Part shown: piece after piece, positions 18,938-23,406 of the stretch
Layout: every line of letters begins with the position of its first letter
How positions within the stretch are numbered: the stretch's first letter is position 1
DNA from: Bifidobacterium breve
GTDB taxonomy: Bacteria; Actinomycetota; Acidimicrobiia; Acidimicrobiales; Ilumatobacteraceae
Length of the DNA stretch: 35,279 nt
Reading direction: 5' to 3'
Assembly: GCA_945886445.1 (NCBI GenBank)
Contig: CAMCZG010000014.1
Location: 1 to 35,279, forward strand
The notes under the pieces: model-generated
The model's database searches: none
Seen by the model: the letters and a program-made list of their open reading frames with translations, nothing else
Told to the model about the DNA's origin: nothing
Translations under genes and position numbers: made by a program

Positions 18938-19738
18938 TTAGTTCGGGTGCTCGTTCGGGTGCTGGTCTGGAACAGCGGCAAAAAGGGCACGCACATTGTG
19001 ACTATTGAGAGGCAAGCGGTGCCCTGTGCGACTAATGAAGCCCAATTGAACGCCTGAAACCGGGTCGAGCACGGTGAAGAGCTGTTCGTGGCCATCTTTG
19101 TCAACGATGACGTCGGTGAGGAGAGGAACGCCAATGGCCGAGAGGGCCTGCTGTGTAAAGCCTGCATTAAGCACCTCAATAGCAATGTGTTGAACACCCG
19201 AACCATGTTCATCGAGGTGTGCCTGCACTGCAGCATCGTTGCCGGCGCCGAGCAGAACAACTAAAACTCCACCTGCTTCTGCGAGAAACATGTCTTTGTC
19301 GTCGGTGGACGACACGCGGAACCCCATTTGAGTGAAAAACGCACAAGTGGCACTGATGTCGGTCACGGCTACTACAACGTGGTCGATGCGGCACGCCACG
19401 GTGTCGAGGGCGGAAGCGCCGTTCATCTCGGCATCTTTAAGTGGTGCAGTTTCGTTGCGCCCGTGAGCAACTTCTATACGGTGTGTTTCTGCGAGCAGTG
19501 TGCGGAATATTTGTTCTGCAAAGTCGGCATCAACATTTTTGTTAATGGCCCACTGCCTGCGTGTGGTGAGTACTTCACGAACGCGTTGCGGCTGAATGAC
19601 TGCTGCATCTACCTGCGATTTTACGTCGGCTACTTCTTTGCACACTTCAAGTCGACGAGCGAGTAGTTCAACAATGCCCTGGTCAATGCTGTCTATTTCG
19701 TTACGCAGCGCTGACAATTCTTGTGAAATATCGCTCAT
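18938..19738 (-). CDS. Fusion of AroQ-type chorismate mutase-like domain and VOC (glyoxalase/HPPD-like) domain
   Basis: A 266-residue protein. Residues 1-90 are an AroQ helical domain. Against E. coli PheA, Arg12, Arg29, Lys40 and Arg52 align with Arg11, Arg28, Lys39 and Arg51 at a constant offset, but Asp48 is Gln49 and Glu52 is Val53; both normally contact the chorismate hydroxyl. Residues about 115-250 are a single VOC domain starting RIDHVVVAVTD, with HGSGVQHIAIEV and a closing QLGFISRTG. This resembles half of 4-hydroxyphenylpyruvate dioxygenase or a methylmalonyl-CoA epimerase. Two metal-type His are kept, but the usual Glu before the last strand appears to be Gly. The ATG overlaps the ribE stop by 4 bases (ATGA), so they are translationally coupled. 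The tail carries a 12-bp tandem duplication. Catalytic role unknown; a ligand-binding or altered-substrate enzyme is possible. Confidence 0.78.
   Translation of the reverse strand: MSDISQELSALRNEIDSIDQGIVELLARRLEVCKEVADVKSQVDAAVIQPQRVREVLTTRRQWAINKNVDADFAEQIFRTLLAETHRIEVAHGRNETAPLKDAEMNGASALDTVACRIDHVVVAVTDISATCAFFTQMGFRVSSTDDKDMFLAEAGGVLVVLLGAGNDAAVQAHLDEHGSGVQHIAIEVLNAGFTQQALSAIGVPLLTDVIVDKDGHEQLFTVLDPVSGVQLGFISRTGHRLPLNSHNVRALFAAVPDQHPNEHPN
18941..18964 (-). repeat. 12-bp tandem duplication at the 3' end of the chorismate mutase/VOC gene
   Basis: Two adjacent 12-base units differing only at the last base (gttcgggtgctc, then gttcgggtgctg, read on the plus strand). They keep the frame and encode the HPNEHPN tail just before the stop codon. 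Confidence 0.85.
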
Positions 19739-20331: not shown

Positions 20332-20415
20332 CCCGTCGCAGGTTGGTGGTGTCGTGTCTATTCCGTAGCCTGTAGAGGTCGAGCAAGGCCCACCCCAACG
20401 AGAGAAGGGGAGAGC

Positions 20416-20453
20416 GTCGCTCAGATGCCCGTGGCCAATTGGCTGCGAGCGAC
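20416..20453 (+). promoter_or_regulatory. Hairpin in the rpsO 5' region
   Basis: GTCGCTC (20416-20422) pairs with GAGCGAC (20447-20453). Inside it, 20431-20436 pairs with 20441-20446 around an AATT loop. It ends 27 bases before the rpsO ATG. It could be an S15-binding autoregulatory leader, as several unrelated rpsO leaders are. However, a TATATA box at 20460-20465 could place the transcription start downstream of it, in which case it would not be transcribed with rpsO. Confidence 0.4.
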
Positions 20454-20480
20454 CCACGTTATATACAAAGTGAGGCACCC

Positions 20481-20747
20481 ATGCCAGAAAAGGCACCAAA
20501 GCAGACCACCATCGCCGTGCACCAACAGCACGCGACCGATACCGGCTCTCCAGATGTTCAGGTTGCGCTCCTTACCGACCGCATCAATCAATTAACTGAT
20601 CACTTGAAAGACCACCCGAAAGATCACCACTCACGTCGTGGACTTTTGATGTTGGTTGGCCGTCGTCGCCGCATGCTCGATTACGTACGCGACCGTGATG
20701 TTCAGCGTTACCGCGATCTCATCGCAAAACTTGGTCTTCGTCGCTAA
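20481..20747 (+). CDS. rpsO: 30S ribosomal protein S15
   Basis: An 88-residue S15, which binds 16S rRNA early in 30S assembly. Recognisable features are the [20 protein letters not shown] segment, the [25 protein letters not shown] core with the rRNA-binding basic cluster, and the usual end [13 protein letters not shown]. The ATG at 20481 is chosen because GTGAGG lies 5 nt upstream and it gives the family length; an upstream in-frame start at 20439 would add 14 unconserved residues. It is followed by pnp on the same strand after a 217-base structured spacer, the classic rpsO-pnp pairing. Confidence 0.97.
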
Positions 20748-20769
20748 TCAGCGTCGCCCACTCTGGCTA

Positions 20770-20794
20770 GGTATCCCTAAAAGGTGGGGATACC
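20770..20794 (+). other. Hairpin just after rpsO (possible processing site or mRNA end)
   Basis: GGTATCCC (20770-20777) pairs perfectly with GGGATACC (20787-20794) around a 9-base loop, 22 bases after the rpsO stop. No T-run follows, so a simple intrinsic terminator is unlikely. In Streptomyces the rpsO-pnp spacer hairpin is cut by RNase III, and the same role is reasonable here by inference. Confidence 0.5.
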
Positions 20795-20826
20795 ACAAGC
20801 AGAATAGAAACCAGAAATAAAGAAGC

Positions 20827-20913
20827 GAGCAACCGTGAGTCGGTTGTCAGTCGCCTAGCCCGTGGCCCTTGTTGGGTCACGAGATTGCCGACTGGGAACC
20901 GTCATTGTTGCTC
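20827..20913 (+). promoter_or_regulatory. Structured RNA leader upstream of pnp with competing folds
   Basis: Nested pairings visible by eye: 20827-20833 with 20907-20913 (7 bp), 20841-20845 with 20897-20901 (5 bp), 20848-20853 with 20889-20894 (6 bp), and an inner hairpin 20861-20868 with 20874-20881 (8 bp including one G-U). A local hairpin, 20830-20835 with 20841-20846, uses the same strands as the outer two helices, so the two folds exclude each other. The element ends 51 bases before the pnp start. PNPase is known to autoregulate through its leader in other bacteria. A role here is inferred. Confidence 0.6.
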
Positions 20914-20964
20914 ATTTGACCCCGTCTCATCTTTGAGCGCAAACATATATAAAAGGAGGACACC

Positions 20965-23406
20965 ATGGCTGATGCCATCCGCGTGTCTGGTGCCGTTTCA
21001 GGTACCGATAAAACTCTGTCTTTTGAGACAGGAAAACTTGCCCAGCAGTCACAGGGTGCAGTTGTTGCGAGCCTTGGCCGCACCACCGTACTCTCCACCG
21101 CAAACGCCGCAAAAGGTGTTCGCGATGGCATTGACTTCTTCCCACTCACCGTCGACGTAGAAGAGCGTGCTTATGCAGCAGGAAAAATTCCTGGCGCATT
21201 TTTCCGCCGTGAAGGTCGCCCAACAGAAATGGCAATTCTTACTTGCCGTCTCACCGACCGTCCGTTGCGCCCTGCATTCCCCGATGGCTACCGCAACGAA
21301 ACGCAAATTGTTCTCACCATCATTGGTGCCGACCAGGAAAACCCACACGACATCTTGTCCATCAACGCTGCATCTGCATCGCTCATGATTAGTGGTATTC
21401 CATTCGAAGGCCCAATTGGAGCTGTGCGTGTTGCTTACAGCACAGCAGGCGAGTGGATTCCACACCCCACCTTCGAAGAGAGCGAAGCAGCAACATTCGA
21501 ACTCGTTGTTGCTGGTCGTCAGCTCGACGACGGCGATGTTGCCATCATGATGGTAGAGGCCGGCGGCACCGAGAAGAGCTTCTCGTACTATGCCGATGGT
21601 GCACCAAAAGTAAATGAGCCTGTATTGGCAAGTGGTCTTGAGGCATCAAAAAAGTGGATCAAAGAGTCCATTGGTTTGCAGCGCCAACTTGTAGCAAGTG
21701 TTATTGCTACGAAGGGCCCAATTGAGCCACTGAAGTACACGCCAGTTCTTGACTACTCGCCAGAAGTATTTGCCGCTGTAGAAGGTGTAGCCACCACAAA
21801 GTTGGCTCCAGCAGTTGCTATTTCATTGAAGAGTGCTCGCAACGAAGCAATTGATGGAGTAACAACAGAAGCTCTTGCAGCGTTATGTGGAACTTCTGAT
21901 TCACCTGGCGCATTTGCAGGTCAGGAAAAAGCCGTGAAAGAAGCTGTGCGCAGCTTGACCAAGAAATTGGTACGTAAGCGCATCGTTGAAGAAGGTATGC
22001 GTATCGATGGTCGTGGACCTCGCGATCTTCGCCCTGTCACTTCCGAAGTAGGCATTTTGGCTACAGCACACGGAACGGGCCTTTTCCAACGTGGAGAGAC
22101 TCAAGTAATGAACGTGTGCACACTCGCAATGCCACGCATGAATCAGTTGCTCGACACATTGACTCCTGATACCACCAAGCGTTTCATTCATCACTACAAC
22201 ATGGCTCCATGGGCTAACGGCGAAACAGGCCGCGTTGGTTCACCTAAGCGCCGCGAAATTGGCCACGGTGCATTGGCCGAGCGTGCGTTGTTGCCAGTAG
22301 TGCCAAGCCAAGAAGACTTCGCTTACACCATTCGTTTGGTGAGTGAAGTGATGTCGTCAAACGGTTCCACCTCAATGGGTTCGGTCTGCTCAGCAAGCCT
22401 TTCGCTCATGGACGCTGGTGTTCCCATCATTGCTCCTGTTGCTGGTATCGCAATGGGCTTGGTGTTTGCTGAAGGCAAGTACACCACGCTCACCGACATC
22501 TTGGGTGCAGAAGACGCATTCGGCGACATGGACTTCAAAGTTGCCGGTACTGCCGACGCGATTACAGCGTTGCAACTCGACACAAAAATTGAAGGCATTC
22601 CTGCTGATGTTCTTATTGCTGCTCTCGACCAAGCAAAAGATGCACGTCTAGCTATTTTGGAAGTCATGAACGCAGCGCTTTCTGCTCCACGCAGTGAAGT
22701 TGCCGAAACTGCTCCAAAAATTGTTTCATTCACCATTCCGCTCGACAAAGTGGGAGAAGTTATTGGGCCAAAGGGCAAGGTCATCAACACCATTCAGCAA
22801 GAAACTGGTGCCGACATTGCAGTGAGCGACGATGGTGCCGTTGGCATCATCACCATTGGTTCGCCAGACTCTGTGAAGGTGAACGAAGCTCGTGAGCGCA
22901 TCATGGCCATCGTTCAACCACCAACTGCAGACCTCGGTGGCATTTACAACGGTCGCGTTGTGAGCATCACCAAGTTCGGTGCATTCGTCAACATCCTTCC
23001 TGGGCGTGACGGTCTTGTGCACATTTCAAAGTTGGGTAATGGCAAGCGCATCAACAATGTTGAAGATGTGCTTGAACTCGGCCAAGAAATTCAGGTTCGT
23101 GTTGACGACATCGACGACAAGGGCAAGGTCAGCCTCAGCCCCGTTGGCGAAGGCTTCGAATCGAGTGGCGATGCAGCTCCACGCGAAGAGCGTGCACCAC
23201 GTGCTCCTCGCGAAGAGCGTGCTCCACGTGAAGACCGGGCACCTCGTGCCGAGCGCAGCGATGCGCCCGACAACGCAGTGGCTGTGAGCTTTGAAGATGA
23301 GTTCGAAAGTGAACTCTCGGGCGAACTCGGTGACCTCGGCCCCGGCCGTGAAGCCGGTAACCGTGGTGGTGGCCGTGGCGATGACAATCGCCGTCGTCAC
23401 CGCTAA
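20965..23406 (+). CDS. pnp: Polyribonucleotide nucleotidyltransferase (PNPase)
   Basis: An 813-residue phosphorolytic 3'-5' exoribonuclease of RNA decay. It has two RNase PH domains (roughly 10-145 and 340-545) around a helical linker. KH follows from about 584 with VIGPKGKVINTIQ, and S1 covers about 657-728 with GRVVSITKFGAFVNILPGRDGLVHIS. Residues 729-813 form an extra tail of APREERAP-like repeats, then an acidic patch and a GGGRGDD/RRRHR end. This tail is predicted disordered and may bind RNA or partners. The ATG at 20965 is firm because AAAGGAGG lies 5 nt upstream, a near-perfect binding site. It lies downstream of rpsO and of a strongly structured spacer, and a 14-bp hairpin follows its stop. 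Confidence 0.98.
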   Translation: MADAIRVSGAVSGTDKTLSFETGKLAQQSQGAVVASLGRTTVLSTANAAKGVRDGIDFFPLTVDVEERAYAAGKIPGAFFRREGRPTEMAILTCRLTDRPLRPAFPDGYRNETQIVLTIIGADQENPHDILSINAASASLMISGIPFEGPIGAVRVAYSTAGEWIPHPTFEESEAATFELVVAGRQLDDGDVAIMMVEAGGTEKSFSYYADGAPKVNEPVLASGLEASKKWIKESIGLQRQLVASVIATKGPIEPLKYTPVLDYSPEVFAAVEGVATTKLAPAVAISLKSARNEAIDGVTTEALAALCGTSDSPGAFAGQEKAVKEAVRSLTKKLVRKRIVEEGMRIDGRGPRDLRPVTSEVGILATAHGTGLFQRGETQVMNVCTLAMPRMNQLLDTLTPDTTKRFIHHYNMAPWANGETGRVGSPKRREIGHGALAERALLPVVPSQEDFAYTIRLVSEVMSSNGSTSMGSVCSASLSLMDAGVPIIAPVAGIAMGLVFAEGKYTTLTDILGAEDAFGDMDFKVAGTADAITALQLDTKIEGIPADVLIAALDQAKDARLAILEVMNAALSAPRSEVAETAPKIVSFTIPLDKVGEVIGPKGKVINTIQQETGADIAVSDDGAVGIITIGSPDSVKVNEARERIMAIVQPPTADLGGIYNGRVVSITKFGAFVNILPGRDGLVHISKLGNGKRINNVEDVLELGQEIQVRVDDIDDKGKVSLSPVGEGFESSGDAAPREERAPRAPREERAPREDRAPRAERSDAPDNAVAVSFEDEFESELSGELGDLGPGREAGNRGGGRGDDNRRRHR

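Follow-up and report, generated by a model that had tools for sequence, protein, structure and literature searches.

The rpsO-pnp spacer

The window, a stretch of 35,279 nucleotides, contains an 87-base element upstream of pnp (20827-20913). The original prediction described it as an alternative-fold RNA: four nested helices and a local hairpin competing with them, as might be expected of a switch, of a leader through which PNPase and RNase III control pnp, or of a protein-binding RNA. Which of these is it, and is the structure conserved?

The host genome belongs to the Acidimicrobiia (Ilumatobacteraceae-like), and the named relatives nearest to the window are Acidimicrobiia as well, chiefly Ilumatobacteraceae or Acidimicrobiaceae. 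The neighbouring genes are those originally named. The upstream gene is rpsO, encoding ribosomal protein S15 (20481..20747; Pfam Ribosomal_S15, E 2.6e-36). It is followed by a spacer of 217 nt (20748..20964) and by the polynucleotide phosphorylase gene pnp (20965..23406), an ORF of 813 aa with Pfam domains RNase_PH, PNPase, KH and S1. Both genes and the spacer are on the plus strand, so the element lies on the coding strand. The pnp ribosome-binding site AGGAGG (20954..20959) is outside the hairpin. Elsewhere in the window, a 266-aa ORF on the minus strand (18938-19738) combines a type II chorismate mutase domain (CM_2, E 2e-20) with a glyoxalase/VOC domain (E 7e-10), a fusion that looks unusual.

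The spacer folded as a whole has a z-score of -5.2. A first hairpin, without a U-tract, follows the rpsO stop codon (20770..20794, GGTATCCC..GGGATACC). It had been put forward as a second structured part of the spacer, and both the spacer fold and the comparison with relatives show that it is real. Relatives within the genus have a hairpin at this position, as do about half of the spacers examined from the family, and its sequence varies among them. By analogy with the Streptomyces layout, it is probably the hairpin of the rpsO 3' end. Similar hairpins after rpsO, likewise without a run of T, were observed in several family members.

Structure of the pnp-leader hairpin

The region 20827-20913 is predicted to fold into a single long interrupted hairpin. 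Its minimum free energy is -49 kcal/mol, compared with -26.8 +/- 3.6 in 200 dinucleotide shuffles (z -6.1), none of which was as good. All four helices, of 7, 5, 6 and 8 bp, lie where they had been placed. The outer helix of 7 bp (20827-20833/20907-20913) is formed by the arms GAGCAAC (20827..20833) and GTTGCTC (20907..20913); the former varies between species yet remains complementary to its partner. The core stem consists of a lower helix of 5 bp (20841-20845/20897-20901) and an upper helix of 6 bp (20848-20853/20889-20894), or 7 bp if the adjoining wobble U20847.G20895 is counted. In the alignments the 5' arm of the core, CGGTT-G-TCAGTCG (20841..20853), is near-fixed, and it faces the 3' arm CGACTGG-G-AACCG (20889..20901); G20846 and G20896 are the two halves of a conserved G.G mismatch. 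In the window genome and in the relative L088, position 20902 is T, whereas close relatives have A; this costs a pair immediately beyond the core stem and shifts the local register.

Above the core there is an internal loop (20854..20860 on the 5' side and 20882..20888 on the 3' side), which is 7/7 in the window and 4/4 in L003, L096 and L104. Its 5' side corresponds in the alignment to the [4/4] loop cut by RNase III in Streptomyces (PMC10126417), and may be cut here as well. The apical helix of 8 bp (20861-20868/20874-20881) with its 5-nt loop forms the apical hairpin (20861..20881), which is variable in sequence and length and shows strong covariation.

Conservation and covariation

Altogether, 80 named contigs and another 58 loci supplied rpsO-pnp spacers. 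In folds of family members the same hairpin lies 30-116 nt before pnp, and its core (GGUUGUCAGUCG ... CGACUGGGAACC) hardly changes; this middle stem, with its conserved G.G mismatch, is near-invariant in sequence. Two outcomes that would have refuted the original prediction, a spacer that is not conserved and outer helices without covariation, were looked for, and neither was observed. The element is indeed kept at the same slot in the relatives. As for compensatory changes, the outer and apical helices covary, whereas the core stem is nearly fixed in sequence.

With the structure fixed, 93.7% of the cells are paired in an alignment of 26 family sequences, where 7 pairs are changed on both sides and 35 double-change cells are observed. 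The corresponding values for 53 sequences are 91.0%, 10 pairs and 110 cells. The paired percentage and the number of double-change cells were matched by 0 of 500 shuffles for both sets, and the covariation score of the 26 sequences was likewise reached by 0 of 500, these counts not being probabilities, as the aligned sequences share kinship. When the register was slid, the fraction of paired cells dropped to about 23-48%. The outer helix was assessed by swapping flanks between genomes, with no pairs picked by eye. The own 5' and 3' outer flanks yield -15.4 kcal/mol versus -11.5 kcal/mol for swapped flanks in 30 family genomes, and -17.9 versus -13.9 kcal/mol in 44 genomes of the wider set (0 of 5000 permutations in each case).

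Covariation comes chiefly from the apical helix, the outer helix and a few core pairs (columns 16-72 of alignment A2; columns 4-80 and 14-70 of alignment A3). The core pairs are less informative, as the stem they form is for the most part constant or changes on one side. In the 53-row alignment, whose rows were partly selected by the core, the core stem has about 26 positions, of which 10 are invariant and several others are conserved in more than 90% of rows; the core mismatch is G.G in 47 of the 53 rows. Since many rows were retrieved by the core pattern, which did not include the apical and outer helices, core conservation is somewhat inflated. The same alignment contains 94 G.U cells versus 38 A.C cells, an excess that favours the pnp mRNA strand. 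The element 20827-20913 is a conserved RNA structure.

Distribution

Two covariance models were constructed, R1 from the 26 family sequences and the broader R2 from the 53 sequences, with no Actinomycetia included. The hairpin is close to its own reverse complement, and both models therefore give scores on the opposite strand too. In the genome of the window, R1 finds the element itself (E 3.6e-15) and its reverse complement, and the next place has E 1.67; there is thus one confident copy. R1 also recovers Acidimicrobiia held out from the model. In whole-genome scans it matches 45 of 119 genomes of the class (E 0.01 or better) and 24 of 149 genomes of the phylum (E 0.1 or better), while R2 at E 0.001 matches 67 and 41 of them, respectively.

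All fetched R1 loci with E below about 0.0018 are immediately followed by pnp and flanked by rpsO on the far side, except that rpsO was not detected in three; the fetched loci without pnp have E 0.0019 or worse. In all 12 newly fetched R2 loci the element occupies the same slot. By the covariance models, the element is found in the rpsO-pnp spacer of most Acidimicrobiia and of other classes of the phylum. However, three family members (L004, L102, L138) seem to have no element in this spacer, and the match in L107 is only weak; these cases count against the leader reading given below. The spacers of L102 and L138 are short (about 77 and 103 nt). The locus L033 is labelled Bifidobacterium breve; its pnp gene and leader element look like those of Acidimicrobiia, and it is probably a mislabelled metagenome bin.

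Candidate function

By analogy with Streptomyces, it is likely that the element is the Acidimicrobiia pnp-leader hairpin, a branch of an actinobacterial family, acting in cis and cut by RNase III for autocontrol of PNPase. Of the mechanisms originally suggested, this one fits best: the RNase III hairpin of Streptomyces has this slot and layout, compensatory changes are seen in the outer and apical helices, and the genome encodes RNase III (G000:C6:22111-22746; TIGR02191, E 6.3e-66, over the cut-off); the cutting itself is transferred from Streptomyces. A search of this incomplete genome for 23S rRNA, whose processing stems could show whether the core is a general RNase III signal, gave nothing.

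According to a review (PMC10126417), RNase III of S. coelicolor cuts both sides of the [4/4] internal loop in the rpsO-pnp intergenic hairpin, and in the rnc null mutant PNPase activity is up 2-4 fold and the transcripts are longer-lived. Staggered cuts have been mapped in a paired part of the P. acnes pnp leader (PMC3848588). By the Streptomyces model, RNase III would bind the long stem of the pnp leader and would cut in the internal loop on top of the conserved core, around 20854-20860 and 20882-20888. In the read-through transcript, the cut would split the rpsO part from the pnp part, leaving 3' ends open to attack by PNPase. An excess of PNPase would then shorten the half-life of the pnp message.

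RNase III has little sequence requirement, and thus cutting alone does not explain the near-fixed core stem. One possibility, which we consider unlikely, is a sequence-specific protein-binding RNA: PNPase (via KH/S1), S15 or another regulator would read the near-fixed G.G core stem and block or recruit, and cutting by RNase III would be secondary. The invariant core positions exceed the needs of pairing, the mismatch is G.G in most rows, and the stem of the Actino-pnp family is near-fixed too. However, the selection of rows by the core pattern inflates this conservation, and with the ribosome-binding site outside the hairpin, binding alone would have no obvious output. A broader version, to which we attach little weight, is a phylum-wide pnp-leader RNA with a stem read by sequence, in which the actinobacterial RNase III, PNPase or a further protein recognises GGUUGUCAGU / ACUGGGAACC together with the G.G mismatch. 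If so, this core would be a sequence-specific double-strand recognition element, more than a duplex substrate.

A metabolite or temperature switch between the local hairpin at 20830-20846 and the long stem is very improbable. The local hairpin (20830-20835 with 20841-20846) does exist, with -6.8 kcal/mol when taken alone, and in folds of the growing chain it forms earliest and lasts to about 70 nt of transcript. As a competitor it fails: its pair probabilities are about 1e-8 to 1e-10, and the fold forced to hold it has -34.8 versus -49.0 kcal/mol, about 14 kcal/mol worse. Nor is it conserved: counting any equivalent with 5 bp or more, it is present in 5 of the 30 family members and in 6 of the 44 other relatives, where about 4.6 would be expected by chance over all 74. 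Two folds of comparable stability, jointly conserved, are therefore not what energies and occurrence in relatives indicate, and the alternative-fold reading was rejected. There is no conserved loop suited as an aptamer. Neither fold has an obvious output, as the structure does not include the ribosome-binding site and is not followed by a U-tract; in the predicted fold the ribosome-binding site and the start codon are unaffected. The Actino-pnp family was also classed as not a switch by Weinberg et al. (PMC2864571). In the folding model, the local hairpin is at most a folding intermediate.

A transcription terminator or a mobile-element palindrome, suggested by the long GC-rich inverted repeat between two genes, is hardly credible: the sequence following 20913 is ATTTGACC, not a U-tract, no plus-strand terminator-like site was found in 20350-21000, the genome has a single confident copy, the G.U bias points to the plus strand, and the slot is fixed through the phylum.

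Relation to Actino-pnp and other known systems

No described RNA family fits the element in Rfam searches of the window at gathering score and of the spacer and the loci of 74 relatives at permissive thresholds. Weak matches to sR35 and CcsR1, below the cut-off and on the other strand, were taken as chance. The obvious candidate is Actino-pnp (RF01688). It has no match in the window at the gathering score (47.7 bits) or anywhere in the genome, none in 20700-21000 at E up to 10, and none in 20 Acidimicrobiia loci at E up to 5, which counts against placing the element in the same family of RNase III-cut leaders. Judged by the criterion that Rfam itself applies, the window element falls outside Actino-pnp.

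RF01688 matches Streptomyces, Amycolatopsis, Micromonospora and others at the rpsO-pnp slot, and all 10 matches over the cut-off are between rpsO and pnp. Among the same 149 phylum genomes, it matches 11, a set disjoint from that matched by R2. Applied to 25 Actinomycetia loci, R2 gives nearly all of its best matches at the Actino-pnp site and in register, the best being L036 (E 3e-5), where RF01688 scores 59 bits. However, these sites are also the strongest hairpins of their spacers and the reverse strand often has an equal score, so the likeness may partly reflect the strongest spacer hairpin.

The two elements share the slot, as pnp leaders on the coding strand between rpsO and pnp, and the layout: a lower helix, a 1x1 mismatch, a helix of about 5 bp, a small internal loop and a variable apical hairpin. 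Their 5' core arms agree in 8 of 11 letters (CGGUUGUCAGU / CGGUCCUCGGU) and the 3' core arms in 6 of 11, with the arms in register and the changes paired. On the other hand, the mismatch is C.A in Actino-pnp and G.G in the Acidimicrobiia element, the internal loop is 3/3 or 4/4 in the former and commonly 7/7 with isolated possible pairs in the latter, and the outer covarying helix is additional in the window element. Common descent of the two is likely but not proven, judging from the sequences. Our best reading is a pnp-leader hairpin that is spread across much of Actinomycetota, with the element as its Acidimicrobiia branch and Actino-pnp as its Actinomycetia branch. That a covarying element occupies this slot in Acidimicrobiia as well as in further classes points to an early origin of the control within the phylum, and to an Rfam Actino-pnp family that covers one branch only. 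The constancy of the stem sequence itself is the point of interest, and two distinct fixed stems in one slot provide a natural test of why the sequence of a duplex substrate should be conserved.

The control device itself is known, and it is its probable Acidimicrobiia form that current RNA catalogues have missed. For E. coli, the textbooks describe how PNPase controls itself via a leader hairpin, and such control has been demonstrated in Streptomyces. In E. coli a leader hairpin also precedes pnp in the rpsO-pnp operon, the likeness to the window being one of arrangement; autocontrol there acts via the ends cut by RNase III, as cited in PMC10126417 and PMC3848588. The RNase III site is described in PMC10126417 as the stem below the internal loop in E. 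coli and as the [4/4] loop in S. coelicolor. The latter is the closer parallel: it has the same operon order, a hairpin after rpsO and a second one before pnp, the second with an internal loop above the lower stem as in the window element (PMC5872136, PMC10126417). The first hairpin of the window lacks a U-tract, unlike that of S. coelicolor; cutting, established for the S. coelicolor hairpin, would by analogy extend to the pnp-leader hairpin of Acidimicrobiia.
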